From the NCBI GenBank assembly GCA_902767245.1, contig CACXGO010000040.1:1-57223 (forward strand): 57,223 nt of DNA, in the 5' to 3' direction. This stretch comes from an uncultured Erysipelotrichaceae bacterium. Lineage in GTDB: Bacteria > Bacillota_I > Bacilli_A > RF39 > UBA660. The stretch's first letter is position 1. Each line of letters begins with the position of its first letter. The notes beneath the pieces are model-generated. The model had not been told where the DNA came from, made no database searches, and was given only the letters and a program-made list of their open reading frames with translations. Below, in pieces: positions 5,846 through 11,727 of this stretch. The translations under genes were made by a program, and so were the position numbers.

Positions 5846-5872
5846 AAAAAAGTTTGTGATTACACAAACTTT
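5846..5872 (-). terminator. Intrinsic terminator of the nrd-trxB operon
   Basis: On the minus strand AAAGTTTGTG-TAAT-CACAAACTTTTTT, immediately after the trxB stop; back to back with the CBS-gene terminator. Confidence 0.85.
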
Positions 5873-6749
5873 ATTTTAAATATGAAATAGCATTTATGGC
5901 AGCAATAGTGCCATCATTAGTTGCGGTTGTAAGTTGTCTCACATTTTTTGTTCGAACATCTCCAGCCACAAATATTCCATCAATATTAGTATTCATATCA
6001 TCTGATTTAATATAACCGTAATTATCAATACTAACTAGATCTTTAAATATTTTTGAAGTTGGAATACGACCTATTGATAAAAATACTCCATCTAGTTCAA
6101 TATCTTTTTCGCCGTTTATTTGAATTCCTTTAAATAATCCGTTTTCTTCTAAATATTTTGAAACTTTACTTGATAAAATGATTTCAACATTTTTCTTTTC
6201 TTTAACTTCGTTTATATATTTTTCTTCTCCTGTTAAATGATCTAAATCTTGAATGATAATCACTTTTCTACATAAATCAGCTAAAGAAATAGCATTAATT
6301 AATGCACTATTTCCTCCACCAATAACACCAACTATTTTATTTTTATAAAATGCTCCATCGCAAGAAACACAAAAATGAATCCCAGAACCTATTAATTCTT
6401 CTTCATTTTCTAAATTTAATTTTCGATATTCGCATCCTGTTGCAATAATAATAGATTTAGCTTGATATTTATTTGAATCAGTAATAACATCTTTATTTTT
6501 AGTTATTTCTAACACTTCTTCGATTGCAATTTCACAATCCAAAGCTTCTACTTGTTCATATAAATTGTTAGCAAGTTCTGTTCCGCTTATGGCTTTAAAA
6601 CCAGGATAGTTTTCAACGAGTGGTGATGAGGCTATTTGACCTCCTATTCCCTCTTTTTCAATCAATAAAACTTTTTTATTAGCTCTTCTTAAGTAGATTG
6701 CGGCTGTAAGACCTGCTGGTCCCGCACCGATAATAATTGTATCGTACAT
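5871..6749 (-). CDS. trxB: Thioredoxin-disulfide reductase
   Basis: 292 residues. Reduces thioredoxin-like proteins using NADPH and FAD. N-terminal FAD-binding GAGPAGLTAAIYLRR, redox-active CVSC in the NADPH domain (CVSCDGAFY, the usual place of CATC), the NADPH-binding GVIGGGNSA, and the C-terminal FVAGDVR FAD motif. Its ATG overlaps the stop of nrdD by one base (TAATG), so the two are translationally coupled. Together with the redoxin domain at the end of NrdD this suggests the reductase feeds electrons to ribonucleotide reduction. That link is inference from context. Confidence 0.95.
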   Translation of the reverse strand: MYDTIIIGAGPAGLTAAIYLRRANKKVLLIEKEGIGGQIASSPLVENYPGFKAISGTELANNLYEQVEALDCEIAIEEVLEITKNKDVITDSNKYQAKSIIIATGCEYRKLNLENEEELIGSGIHFCVSCDGAFYKNKIVGVIGGGNSALINAISLADLCRKVIIIQDLDHLTGEEKYINEVKEKKNVEIILSSKVSKYLEENGLFKGIQINGEKDIELDGVFLSIGRIPTSKIFKDLVSIDNYGYIKSDDMNTNIDGIFVAGDVRTKNVRQLTTATNDGTIAAINAISYLK

Positions 6750-9115
6750 TATTTTGACTCGATAAATTTTTTAATGTTTGATAAATTAGCATGTTTTTCT
6801 ACTTCACCTTTTTTAATAACTATCAAAGTTGGAGCTTGTTTAACACCTAATTTTTTAGTTAAATCTACTTCTTCTTCAGCATCTACAAATTGATATTTGA
6901 TTTTAGCTTTGTCTAATAAAGTTTTTGCCATTTTACAGTTTGGGCATGTTTTAGTTCCAAAAAGCATAATTCCGTCTTTAACGTCTTCTACTTTTTCATT
7001 AGTGCAATTTTGTTCGCAAGCGCATTTTTCAATATGATTAGCATGATCTAATTCTTCATATTCACATCTGCTATCATATTCGCTTCTTTTTCCGTCATTC
7101 CAATTTTTAATTGGACGATAGTATCCAGTTATACGGCTATAAACTTCTGCTTCTTCGCCACACTCTGGACATGTAAAGTGTTCTCCAGCCATATATCCAT
7201 GATTTTTACATACTGAATATGTTGGTGATAATGTATAGTAAGGTAAACGATAATTTTCAGCAATCGTTCTAACTAACTTAGCTGCTGCTTTCCAATCAGT
7301 TAATCTTTCACCTAAGAATGCATGGAAAACAGTTCCTGATGTGTAAAGTGTTTGAAGTTCATCTTGAACATCTAAAGCAGCAAATATATCTTTTGTATAA
7401 TCTACTGGTAAATGTGATGAATTTGTATAGTAAGGTTTTTGGCCTTCTTTTGCTGCTGTAATAATATCAGGATATTGTTCAACATCATGTTTTGCAAAAC
7501 GATATGTTGTTGATTCAGCTGGTGTTGCTTCTAAGTTATAAAGATCACCATATTCCTCTTGATAATCTGATAATTTCTCACGCATGAAGTTTAAAACTTC
7601 TTTAGCAAATTTTTGGGTTCTAACACTTGTCAAATCTTCTTTTAACCATTTTGCATTTAAACCTACTTCATTCATACCAATTAAACCAATTGTTGAAAAG
7701 TGATTATTAAATGTTCCTAAATAACGTTTTGTATATGGATAAAGTCCTTCATCAAGTAATTTTGTAATAACATTTCGTTTTACTTTTAAACTACGAGCAG
7801 ATATATCCATTAAACGAGTTAAACGACGATAGAAATCTTTTTCATCAGTTGCTAAATATGCAATTCTTGGTAAGTTAATTGTAACAACACCAACAGATCC
7901 TGTTGATTCTCCACTACCAAAGAAGCCACCTGATTTTTTTCTTAATTCTCTTAAGTCTAATCTTAAACGGCAGCACATACTTCGAACATCACTTGGTTCC
8001 ATATCACTATTGATGTAATTTGAAAAATAAGGTGTTCCATACTTTGCTGTCATTTCAAACAATAATTTGTTGTTTTCTGTTTCACTCCAATCAAAATCAC
8101 GAGTAATTGAATATGTTGGAATTGGATATTGGAATCCACGACCATTAGCGTCGCCTTCAATCATAATTTCAATGAAAGCTTTGTTTACCATATCCATTTC
8201 TTTCTGGCAATCTTTGTACTTGAAATCCATTTCCTTACCACCAACAATAGCATTAAGTTCTGCTAAGTCATTTGGTACTGTCCAATCTAAAGTAATATTT
8301 GTGAATGGTGCTTGAGTTCCCCATCTACTTGGGGTATTAACACCATAAATAAATGATTGTAAACTTTGCTTTACTTCTTTATAAGTTAAGTTATCAGCTT
8401 TAACAAATGGTGCCAAATAAGTATCAAATGATGAGAATGCTTGAGCTCCAGCCCATTCGTTTTGCATTATTCCTAAAAAATTAACCATTTGATTACAAAG
8501 AGTTGCTAAATGTTTTGCTGGAGATGATGTAATCTTTCCAGGTACTCCACCTAAACCTTCTTGAATTAATTGTTTCAAACTCCAACCAGCACAATAACCA
8601 CTAAGCATTGATAAGTCATGAATATGAATATCTGCATTTCTGTGAGCATTTGCAATTTCTTCATCATATACTTCACTTAACCAATAATTAGCTGTAATAG
8701 CCCCAGAGTTACTTAAAATTAACCCTCCAATTGAGTATGTAACTGTTGAGTTTTCTTTAACTCGCCAGTCAGTTACATTAATATAGCTATTTACAACATC
8801 ACGATAGTTAAGTACTGCGCCTTGCATATTACGCATTTTTTCATGTTGCTTACGATACAAAATATATGCTTTAGCAACTTCAGCATAACCAGCATTTGAA
8901 AGGATATTTTCAACACTATCTTGAATATCTTCAACTTTAATAGCATTATTTTTAATATTAGCTTGAAAATTAGCGGTTACTTTTAAAGCAAGTAAATCAA
9001 TAACATCATCATTATATTCTGTCTCGGTTGCTTCAAAAGCTCTTCTAATAGCACTTTTAATCCTTTCAATATCAAATTCAACTGTTTTTCCTTCTCTAGT
9101 TTTTACTTTATACAT
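6749..9115 (-). CDS. nrdD: Anaerobic (class III) ribonucleoside-triphosphate reductase with C-terminal redoxin domain
   Basis: 788 residues. Reduces NTPs to dNTPs with a glycyl radical. An ATP-cone (about 1-90, VKTREGKTVEFDIERI) precedes the barrel (IHDLSMLSGYCAGWSL; GSVGVVTINLPRIAY). Zinc-binding cysteines lie in the C-terminal part (HFTCPECGEE), and the glycyl-radical motif is SRITGYYRPIKNWNDGK. An extra C-terminal domain of about 75 residues (MLFGTKTCPNCKMAKTLL ... KQAPTLIVI) is a glutaredoxin/thioredoxin fold with a CPNC active site and a cis-Pro. The upstream frame to 9151 is ignored: AGGAGG at 9122-9127 sets the ATG at 9115. It sits between nrdG and trxB in one operon, and I infer the fused redoxin is the electron donor. 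Confidence 0.95.
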   Translation of the reverse strand: MYKVKTREGKTVEFDIERIKSAIRRAFEATETEYNDDVIDLLALKVTANFQANIKNNAIKVEDIQDSVENILSNAGYAEVAKAYILYRKQHEKMRNMQGAVLNYRDVVNSYINVTDWRVKENSTVTYSIGGLILSNSGAITANYWLSEVYDEEIANAHRNADIHIHDLSMLSGYCAGWSLKQLIQEGLGGVPGKITSSPAKHLATLCNQMVNFLGIMQNEWAGAQAFSSFDTYLAPFVKADNLTYKEVKQSLQSFIYGVNTPSRWGTQAPFTNITLDWTVPNDLAELNAIVGGKEMDFKYKDCQKEMDMVNKAFIEIMIEGDANGRGFQYPIPTYSITRDFDWSETENNKLLFEMTAKYGTPYFSNYINSDMEPSDVRSMCCRLRLDLRELRKKSGGFFGSGESTGSVGVVTINLPRIAYLATDEKDFYRRLTRLMDISARSLKVKRNVITKLLDEGLYPYTKRYLGTFNNHFSTIGLIGMNEVGLNAKWLKEDLTSVRTQKFAKEVLNFMREKLSDYQEEYGDLYNLEATPAESTTYRFAKHDVEQYPDIITAAKEGQKPYYTNSSHLPVDYTKDIFAALDVQDELQTLYTSGTVFHAFLGERLTDWKAAAKLVRTIAENYRLPYYTLSPTYSVCKNHGYMAGEHFTCPECGEEAEVYSRITGYYRPIKNWNDGKRSEYDSRCEYEELDHANHIEKCACEQNCTNEKVEDVKDGIMLFGTKTCPNCKMAKTLLDKAKIKYQFVDAEEEVDLTKKLGVKQAPTLIVIKKGEVEKHANLSNIKKFIESK

Positions 9116-9128
9116 TTTTCTTACCTCC

Positions 9129-9812
9129 TTATAAACCGCGTATAAATACATTACTTTTTTCTTTAAACTTTGCTTGAATTTCTTTTAATTCTTCTTCCGT
9201 AAAACTGGTTAAGCTTTTATCTAAAACATCATCACTCAATTTAAAATTTTGAATGTAATACTTACTATTCCCAACAAGTTTTATGATTTTTTCGATATCC
9301 TTTATACTGTGATATTCTTTTATAATCGTTGTCCTAAACTCATAATCAATATTGCTATTCTTTAGAACCTTTATACTTTCTTCAATAAACTTTTTATTAA
9401 TTTTACATTTTGATACAATTTCATATTTATCTAAATCATGTTTAATATCCATTGCAACATAATCAACTAATCCTTCGTCAATTAACCTTTTGATTAATTT
9501 TGGATTACTACCATTAGTATCAAGTTTTACTTTAAGCTTTAATTCTTTTACTCTTTTAATAAAACCAATTAAATCAACTTGTAATGTTGGTTCCCCACCA
9601 GAAATAACTATTCCGTCAAGAACATTCTTTCTTAAAGTTAAATAATCTAATACTTCTTCTTCACTTATAAGTCCTTTTGCTGAACTATGTTTAATTAATG
9701 AACTATTTTGACAATAAGAGCAACTAAAATTACAACCTCTTGTAAAAATAATACATGCCATATGTCCAGGATAATCTAAAAGTGTTAACTTTTCAAAACC
9801 ATCAATTATCAT
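9129..9812 (-). CDS. nrdG: Anaerobic ribonucleotide reductase activating protein (radical SAM)
   Basis: 227 residues. Radical-SAM enzyme that installs the glycyl radical on NrdD. Shows the CxxxCxxC iron-sulfur motif (RGCNFSCSYCQN), the SAM-binding VISGGEPTLQ and the leading MIIDGFEKLTLLDYPG typical of the NrdG2 (TIGR02495) branch. The frame opens at 9827, but the ATG at 9812, with GTGGGG before it, gives the canonical N-terminus. This start overlaps the end of the upstream NrdD-like gene by 11 bases, and nrdD follows 13 bases downstream, so the three are translationally linked. Confidence 0.93.
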   Translation of the reverse strand: MIIDGFEKLTLLDYPGHMACIIFTRGCNFSCSYCQNSSLIKHSSAKGLISEEEVLDYLTLRKNVLDGIVISGGEPTLQVDLIGFIKRVKELKLKVKLDTNGSNPKLIKRLIDEGLVDYVAMDIKHDLDKYEIVSKCKINKKFIEESIKVLKNSNIDYEFRTTIIKEYHSIKDIEKIIKLVGNSKYYIQNFKLSDDVLDKSLTSFTEEELKEIQAKFKEKSNVFIRGL

Positions 9813-11727
9813 ATTTAAACCCCACATATTTTATTTTGGCATTCTTAATTTCATCAATTAATTTTGTGTATTTTTTAAAATCAATATTTTTTAAATCAAT
9901 CTTATATATTGAAGAAGTTTTATTTTGATATAAAGAGTACATATTTAATTTTTCTTCAAAACTAATTTTTGAATTGTTTATAAATTTATAAACTGGTTCA
10001 TACTTAGATTTATTAATTAACTTAAGAGTTCCAAAAACACATTTATCTAAACGAATAAAATTACTACTTATATCTTCATCATATATTTCAGCACTTATAA
10101 AATTAAGTCTATTTTCAAAAGTTAACTGATCACATTTCTTATTAATTGCTTTAACAATCTTTAATGCCAATTCAAAGTCTTCTAAGGTCAAATTATTATC
10201 TTCTTTTTTATTAAGTATTAAAGAAGCTTCAATTAAACCGACAAATCCCATAACAAAGGCTCCATTGCGTAATACTTTTCTGACTTTCTGTCCATCTTCT
10301 AATTTTTCAGAATCATATAATAATCCTTTATTAAATAAAATATTGTAATTTTCTTTCGTTTTACTTCCTTGAAGATCAAATCTTTGAATTAAAGCATTTT
10401 TATTTAATTCTATAATACTTTCAAGATCTTCTAAGAATCCTTTTATTGTCTTATTTTTTAAAGCTATTCTAGCTAGATTGATTGTTGAAATTGAATTAAT
10501 AACTCGTCCTTTAGAGGTATTAGTTCCATTAATATTTTCATAAACACAAATTCCATCAGAGAAATAGTTAATGTCATGATTTTTTTCAAAAATCATGTGA
10601 ATTTCAATTGATTTCATCTTTTCAAATAAAATCATATTTATTTCATCATTATCATTAACAAAAATATTTGTTAAAATCTTATTGCTTATAATACTATTAA
10701 AATAATTTTTAATAATTATATTAGAAACAAATGAGTCATTATTATCTAAAGAAATAACTATTTTTTCGTTTTGACTTAATACTGATTCTAAAATTGAAAA
10801 TAATCTTTTAAAATTGCTTTCTAATAGTTTATTTAATTTATGTAATACTTTTTCATAAGTAATTACAAAAATATTTCTTAAAACATTGTTTTTTAATTCA
10901 TTATCTAAAAATTTATCATTTATTTCATTCAATTTTTTTAAATAACCATTAATTTTTGTTTGATCAACAAAGTCATCAAGACCATTTATTTTTAAATTGT
11001 TTAAAAATTCATCTGCAAAAATATTTTTAAAATCATTCACTACTCTAGTTGATAATATCGTATCAAAATTTATTAAAGTATGCTCACCAAATTGATCTTT
11101 TTTTACAAGAATAATTGTGCGTATAACCTCATTAAAAAAATCATCAATAGTTTTAGCATTTTCAAAATCAATATTTAAATGACTTGAAGATGTATCTGCA
11201 ATAGCATAGCTTTCTATTCCATTTAGAGCAATCGTTCCTTCTTCAATTGCTTTTTCAACCTTACCTTCTATCAAATAAGAAATTGCAAATTCTTTAGAAA
11301 TGATTTTAGCAAAGCTATCAATTAATTCATTTGGTTTTTGATTATTGGCTTCATTAGCAAAGTAGCCAACTTTTTCAATTGCTTTAACAAATTTATGTTG
11401 TGGTTTAATACCAAACACATCTCTTGAACGAGCACGACGTAAACGATACTTACTAAATGAATCATAAACTTCATTATATCCAAGAATCCTCAATGATTCT
11501 TCAATTATGTTTTGAATATCTTCAACATTAATAGTTTTTCTAGTCTTATAATTTGAATCAATTGTTTTTAAAACAAGTTCGTATACTTTATTAATATCTT
11601 TAGCTTCTGCATTTTCATAAACACTATCAAAGCCTTTACCAATTGCAATCGCAATTTTAGTTCCATTAAAATTTACTCTTTGACCTGTTCTTTTAACAAC
11701 AACAAGTTCTTTAAATGCATCATTCAT
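9802..11727 (-). CDS. Degenerate NrdD-like protein with ATP-cone, lacking the glycyl-radical end
   Basis: 641 residues, first gene of the nrd operon. Residues about 5-100 form an ATP-cone like that of NrdD (VVKRTGQRVNFNGTKIA ... INVEDIQNIIEESL). The rest keeps scattered class III reductase landmarks (INSISTINLARIAL like the TINLPRIA of NrdD; MGFVGLIEASL), but the C-terminus ends in a Lys/Ile-rich stretch with no zinc cysteines and no RxxGY glycyl-radical motif. Cysteines are almost absent. It therefore cannot be a reductase by itself and could be an allosteric or assembly partner. The ATG at 11727 with GAGGA ahead is preferred over a GTG at 11739. The assignment as a NrdD relative is moderately sure; the function is unknown. 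Confidence 0.75.
   Translation of the reverse strand: MNDAFKELVVVKRTGQRVNFNGTKIAIAIGKGFDSVYENAEAKDINKVYELVLKTIDSNYKTRKTINVEDIQNIIEESLRILGYNEVYDSFSKYRLRRARSRDVFGIKPQHKFVKAIEKVGYFANEANNQKPNELIDSFAKIISKEFAISYLIEGKVEKAIEEGTIALNGIESYAIADTSSSHLNIDFENAKTIDDFFNEVIRTIILVKKDQFGEHTLINFDTILSTRVVNDFKNIFADEFLNNLKINGLDDFVDQTKINGYLKKLNEINDKFLDNELKNNVLRNIFVITYEKVLHKLNKLLESNFKRLFSILESVLSQNEKIVISLDNNDSFVSNIIIKNYFNSIISNKILTNIFVNDNDEINMILFEKMKSIEIHMIFEKNHDINYFSDGICVYENINGTNTSKGRVINSISTINLARIALKNKTIKGFLEDLESIIELNKNALIQRFDLQGSKTKENYNILFNKGLLYDSEKLEDGQKVRKVLRNGAFVMGFVGLIEASLILNKKEDNNLTLEDFELALKIVKAINKKCDQLTFENRLNFISAEIYDEDISSNFIRLDKCVFGTLKLINKSKYEPVYKFINNSKISFEEKLNMYSLYQNKTSSIYKIDLKNIDFKKYTKLIDEIKNAKIKYVGFKYDN

Follow-up and report, generated by a model that had tools for sequence, protein, structure and literature searches.

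The anaerobic ribonucleotide reductase (RNR) operon in the window, a stretch of 57,223 nucleotides from an uncultured Erysipelotrichaceae bacterium, is headed by a gene for a NrdD-like protein that has lost its catalytic motifs, retains an intact nucleotide site in its ATP-cone and is under purifying selection. Judged from its sequence, this pseudo-NrdD cannot be a reductase. We lean towards the view that it is a separate, trans-acting regulatory subunit that senses ATP and dATP for the anaerobic reductase; this reading is based on the loss of the catalytic motifs, the intact nucleotide site, a selection focused on the cone and a fixed operon linkage.

The operon and its degenerate first gene

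The open reading frame of pseudo-NrdD (9802..11727, minus strand, 641 aa) is real and complete, with an ATG at 11727 after a GAGG and a stop at 9802, and is documented by Pfam, alignment, dN/dS and an AlphaFold model. The gene stands, as an earlier note on this DNA had it, at the head of the class III reductase operon. This is a tight operon of four genes on the minus strand, in which pseudo-nrdD is followed by nrdG for the radical-SAM activase (9129..9812; TIGR02495, 211 bits), by the active nrdD (NrdD2, 6749..9115; PRK08270 type, 1144 bits) and by a thioredoxin-reductase-like gene (TrxB, 5871..6749), which was assigned from its translation and is conserved beside NrdD2 in relatives. NrdD2, translated from an ATG at 9115 behind the Shine-Dalgarno sequence AAGGAGG, has its own ATP-cone, the finger-loop cysteine, the zinc and glycine motifs and a C-terminal thioredoxin/glutaredoxin domain. 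The start of nrdG overlaps the stop of pseudo-nrdD by 11 bases, which the note gave correctly for the ATG at 9812 (ATGATAATTGA). This start agrees with the alignment of homologues, which begins at residue 6; with the mechanically set start at 9827 the overlap would be 26 bases. In the operons examined, the two genes overlap by 1-38 bases or lie no more than 8 bases apart.

Pfam detects the ATP-cone in residues 9-99 (E 8e-11) and the NRDD family over positions 271-504 of the 562 of the profile (E 2e-27), the C-terminal end of which is unmatched. The catalytic parts were compared, by their commonest variants rather than row by row, between 39 operon-linked orthologues and eight active NrdD1 proteins of the same family; the roles of the active-site, substrate and specificity elements were taken from PMC11226230. 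HxHD, loop 2 (GGQS), the triphosphate loop (ATPAEG), the zinc cysteines and the glycyl motif are lost in all 39 aligned orthologues, and the NxN active-site flap, which comes after the linker in active NrdD, is deleted in all of them, as is the specificity-site hairpin (STGHG) in the orthologues. The finger loop reads YMGCRTRV in all eight active NrdD1 but YFS[DN]G or similar in the 39 orthologues and in six further dead NrdD1; the corresponding segment of the window protein (10504..10590, minus strand) has YFSDG in place of YMGCRT and thus no thiyl-radical cysteine. The earlier note had pointed to the missing glycyl-radical motif and zinc cysteines and to hardly any cysteine at all. The alignment bears out the two losses for all orthologues and adds that of the finger-loop cysteine, and the 641 residues of the window protein hold only three cysteines.

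Supply of the glycyl-radical domain by a separate small gene can be ruled out as an explanation, since the finger-loop cysteine, the flap and HxHD are missing as well. The assembly, which is 76% complete and in which very short ORFs might escape detection, has no NRDD-family match besides pseudo-NrdD and NrdD2. A split glycyl-radical domain does exist among the active NrdD1 of relatives: the large ORF stops past the zinc ribbon, and a second, small ORF of about 50-60 aa ahead of nrdG, which has a Shine-Dalgarno sequence and an ATG to itself, encodes the glycyl-radical peptide (RIRRITGYLVGT...) (L052:4240-4413, minus strand; likewise downstream of NrdD1 in L053, L054, L057 and L058). It is fused to NrdD1 in L056, L060 and L061 and in the class-level relatives L181 and L182. 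The literature searched yielded no class III reductase divided between two polypeptides in this way. Two other unusual architectures were seen, a 676-aa NrdD with the finger-loop cysteine (MGCRSF), no zinc/glycyl end and a dUTPase-like ORF behind it (L175:2711-4741, minus strand), and a 908-aa ORF beside a NrdD2 that resembles a NrdD1-NrdG1 fusion (L107:2874-5600).

The fold is much better preserved than the "traces of the NrdD barrel" of the earlier note. A profile of 36 orthologues aligns residues 10-650 with residues 8-680 of the 743-residue chain of Prevotella copri NrdD (E 8e-56), that is, with nearly the whole core. AlphaFold models were built with active NrdDs in the alignment (mean pLDDT 91.0) and from the 36 pseudo-NrdDs only (mean pLDDT 89.2). 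Both have the ATP-cone and ten barrel strands, and the top PDB matches of both are class III NrdDs (target-normalised TM up to 0.76-0.77), so the fold is not an artefact of the active proteins in the alignment. The core barrel (residues 126-637; 9817..11352, minus strand) thus retains ten predicted strands with all substrate and specificity-site motifs lost, and the C terminus falls about where the glycyl-radical domain would start. The linker between cone and barrel (residues 101-125; 11353..11427, minus strand), with the pattern SRxxFxxKxxHKFxKxxE, is predicted at low confidence, yet it is conserved.

Constraint on the ATP-cone

The ATP-cone (residues 7-100; 11428..11709, minus strand; PF03477) carries the nucleotide-site residues K12, R13, Y94 and R98, with R102 just outside. 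These five together with K24 and R95 are identical in all 39 orthologues, in the six further dead NrdD1 and in the eight active NrdD1. By an alignment that is in part our own gap-free reading, K12, R13, Y94, R98 and R102 correspond to Lys7, Arg8, Tyr83, Arg87 and Arg91 of P. copri NrdD, which are the named dATP contacts of that enzyme (PMC11226230). The ATP-cone of the earlier note is therefore there both as a Pfam match and with all five contact residues invariant.

The constraint on pseudo-NrdD is the opposite of that on the active enzyme. Its cone is the most conserved part (mean pairwise identity 63%, against 27-49% in the barrel segments), whereas in active NrdD1 the cone has 57% and the barrel segments 71-79%. 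Among the 81 columns of pseudo-NrdD that are conserved to at least 90%, 50 are in cone and linker and 31 in the remainder, many of the latter being structural G, L, F or N. Residues 231-395, where the specificity site and the dimer helices are expected, are least conserved and have no such column, an argument against a heterodimer of the canonical NrdD type. The best-kept barrel segment is residues 396-500 (49% identity). Within it, helix 428-454 aligns with one of the two core helices that receive the cone of the neighbour in the dATP tetramer of P. copri; this match is suggestive only, since the source paper reports low conservation of that contact. As far as can be read from these patterns, the ATP/dATP activity site appears to be the only functional site left in pseudo-NrdD.

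The dN/dS of pseudo-nrdD is 0.10-0.23 (NG86, seven pairs), and in every pair the cone and linker have a lower pN than the remainder of the protein. Pseudo-NrdD evolves faster than NrdD2 (dN/dS 0.01-0.09) and similarly to NrdG and TrxB. Hence, the gene is not decaying. That it is a relic of NrdD1 on its way out after replacement by NrdD2 is practically dismissed: the protein does derive from the NrdD1 lineage and all its catalytic parts are degenerate, but reading frames intact in 40 genomes, the dN/dS, the conserved linkage and the strong constraint on the cone rule out a pseudogene.

Distribution and origin

Pseudo-NrdD of the window type is present in 40 of 386 genomes of one Bacilli family, with full-length identities of about 32-65% to the window protein and with ORFs that are intact, one being interrupted only by contig ends. 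In 39 of the 40 carriers, which represent 25 genera, the genes immediately after it are those of NrdG, the active thioredoxin-fused NrdD2 and, where the contig continues, TrxB. The exception is G324, in which the next gene is an active-type NrdD1 and not NrdG, although the sequence nests inside the clade. Related dead NrdD1s in G005, G210, G246 and G311 are divergent to a third type of NrdD, which in G210, the only one seen whole, is complete with finger-loop cysteine, zinc site and glycine motif. Altogether, another active NrdD type adjoins the dead copy in these five genomes. The earlier note had called for a structural alignment with NrdD and for the gene order and the selection to be checked in relatives; the order recurs in 39 genomes, close relatives show purifying selection rather than neutral decay, and profile alignment and models extend the NrdD fold beyond the cone over the whole core. 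Its reading of the protein as a pseudo-reductase is well supported by these results.

Pseudo-NrdD is not obligatory, since at least nine genomes have the same NrdG-NrdD2-TrxB system, at 74-77% identity, with no match to the window type (order confirmed in L097 and L098). In other families of the class (sample of 326 genomes), no dead copy of the window type was seen among the matches inspected; these reach NrdD length (748-912 aa), and in the few shorter ORFs that were inspected (L176, L177 and L178) the finger-loop cysteine is still present. Some genera (e.g. g24, g40, g62 and g65) mix species that have an active NrdD1 with species that have the pseudo-NrdD operon, and the operon may therefore move, or be differentially lost, as a module. 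In the congeners G021 and G219 (L034 and L136), dS is 0.11-0.19 for nrdG and nrdD2 but 0.78 for pseudo-nrdD just upstream, which suggests recombination within the operon.

In a quick tree with long branches, the dead copies derived from NrdD1 form one clade (SH-aLRT 98) that is sister to the active NrdD1 of the family (99). A phage origin is ruled out, the large subunits of phage NrdD matching only distantly (22-24% identity). A second set of dead NrdD-like proteins of 564-605 aa (L049:4081-5898; L108:1729-3492, minus strand; L110:1115-2809) derives from the E. coli-type NrdD and is a separate group in the tree. By sequence, it is a second dead lineage, apparently of independent origin, in the same family. 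The copies of L108 and L110 adjoin an active NrdD-NrdG pair. Two independent origins beside active reductases make a role in the reductase system likely. The copy of L110 does not have the start of the ATP-cone; hence the retention of a dead NrdD does not require a full cone.

Proposed function and its implications

How could a dead NrdD act? The cone of pseudo-NrdD would bind ATP or dATP, and the protein would use the helices of the cone, together with the conserved linker, to dock either onto active NrdD or onto further copies of itself and NrdD. It would then switch or gate the enzyme in response to the ratio of dATP to ATP, most likely by dATP inhibition, as for a cone in cis. There are precedents: with dATP bound, class III cones dimerise through the last helices and can touch the cores of neighbours (PMC11226230, PMC12662201), and class I RNR can be regulated by a cone that a non-catalytic subunit carries (PMC5794259). 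A regulatory subunit is favoured by the observation that pseudo-NrdD adjoins an active NrdD even when the type of NrdD differs. It is also favoured because a class I or II reductase was not found in 12 sampled genomes and NrdR (TIGR00244) was not over its cut-off in any of 147 sampled relatives. In the genome itself (76% complete), neither a further ATP-cone nor a match to a class I or II large chain was detected; together with the lack of another NRDD-family match, this leaves NrdD2 as the only reductase detected.

In the NrdD2 cone of the window genus, the KR motif has Thr instead of Lys, and the residue corresponding to R98 is His. The loss of this Lys is in line with a regulatory subunit. 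It is lost only there; in most operons the KR motif is intact in the NrdD2 cone, which rules out, as a general explanation, that the cone was outsourced from a dead NrdD2 cone. NrdD2 has its own, mostly intact ATP-cone in the same operon and does not obviously need a second one, which counts against our proposal, and together with the nine genomes that do without pseudo-NrdD it argues against necessity. It is tempting to generalize that a dead NrdD with an ATP-cone binds active NrdD in trans as an ATP/dATP switch, that this arose at least twice in one family and that it pairs with three active NrdD types; for this wider statement our confidence is lower, and we put it forward as a serious but tentative possibility.

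The main rival is an activation factor for NrdG. Both a cone contributed in trans and a control of assembly or activation, the two roles that the earlier note had considered, would fit the pattern of constraint. As an activation factor, pseudo-NrdD would be a NrdD-shaped partner that positions NrdG, shields the glycyl-radical domain when it is flipped out or keeps NrdD ready for activation, and nucleotides would control activation, not catalysis. The translational coupling is indeed to nrdG and not to nrdD, and NrdG by nature interacts with proteins of NrdD fold. However, the glycyl-radical domain, the target of NrdG, is missing from pseudo-NrdD, the neighbour in G324 is an active NrdD1, and NrdG works in nine genomes that lack pseudo-NrdD. 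We consider this role unlikely.

NrdR is a separate ATP-cone protein that senses ATP and dATP and represses the transcription of RNR genes. Pseudo-NrdD is likewise a separate protein with a cone, and it is the cone that is constrained; with NrdR below its cut-off in the relatives, it could sense dATP on behalf of some target besides NrdD and NrdG, for example as a stand-in for NrdR. This is improbable, because NrdR is absent with or without pseudo-NrdD, neither sequence nor model has a DNA-binding domain (nor is there a zinc ribbon) and a whole barrel would be odd to retain. Still less probable is a barrel recruited to a new non-radical activity such as nucleotide hydrolysis, binding or storage: the fold is fully kept and residues 396-500 are fairly conserved, but the barrel has no new invariant polar set and contributes few of the highly conserved columns.

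Compared to known systems, pseudo-NrdD shares the N-terminal cone with the same dATP contacts, the ten-stranded barrel and the genetic association with NrdG with the class III NrdDs of P. copri (8P23/8P28) and Streptococcus thermophilus (9D3X), and differs from them in the loss of the thiyl cysteine, NxN flap, HxHD, loop 2, specificity-site hairpin, zinc site and glycyl-radical domain. Inactive R1 homologues of herpesviruses (cytomegalovirus UL45/M45) also have the fold of an RNR large subunit, lost catalysis and were retained for another role (PMC5469499), but they are viral, of class I fold and act on host signalling, whereas pseudo-NrdD is a bacterial class III paralogue encoded in one operon with the active enzyme. 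In Leeuwenhoekiella blandensis NrdB (PDB 5OLK), an activity-regulating cone sits on a subunit that is not the catalytic one (PMC5794259); there it is fused to the radical-generating subunit of a class I enzyme, here to a dead class III catalytic copy. Pseudo-RNRs in herpesviruses and cones on other subunits in class I are thus already known. What seems to be new is that the operon of an active class III enzyme includes a conserved dead NrdD; neither this nor any catalytically inactive class III homologue was described in the open-access literature searched.

Pseudo-NrdD gives matches to NrdD families although it cannot be a reductase, and annotation pipelines should therefore treat such matches with caution. 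In the papers cited here, RNR activity is controlled by cones fused to a working subunit or by the transcription factor NrdR. If our reading is correct, pseudo-NrdD would be a pseudoenzyme regulator, a dead copy of a catalytic subunit that keeps only the activity sensor, for an enzyme that makes DNA precursors. In the window organism, described as a gut-type bacterium, the dead copy heads the operon of the only reductase detected, an anaerobic one, and the family supplies natural controls: relatives that have the same reductase without the pseudo-subunit and relatives in which the active enzyme has been swapped.
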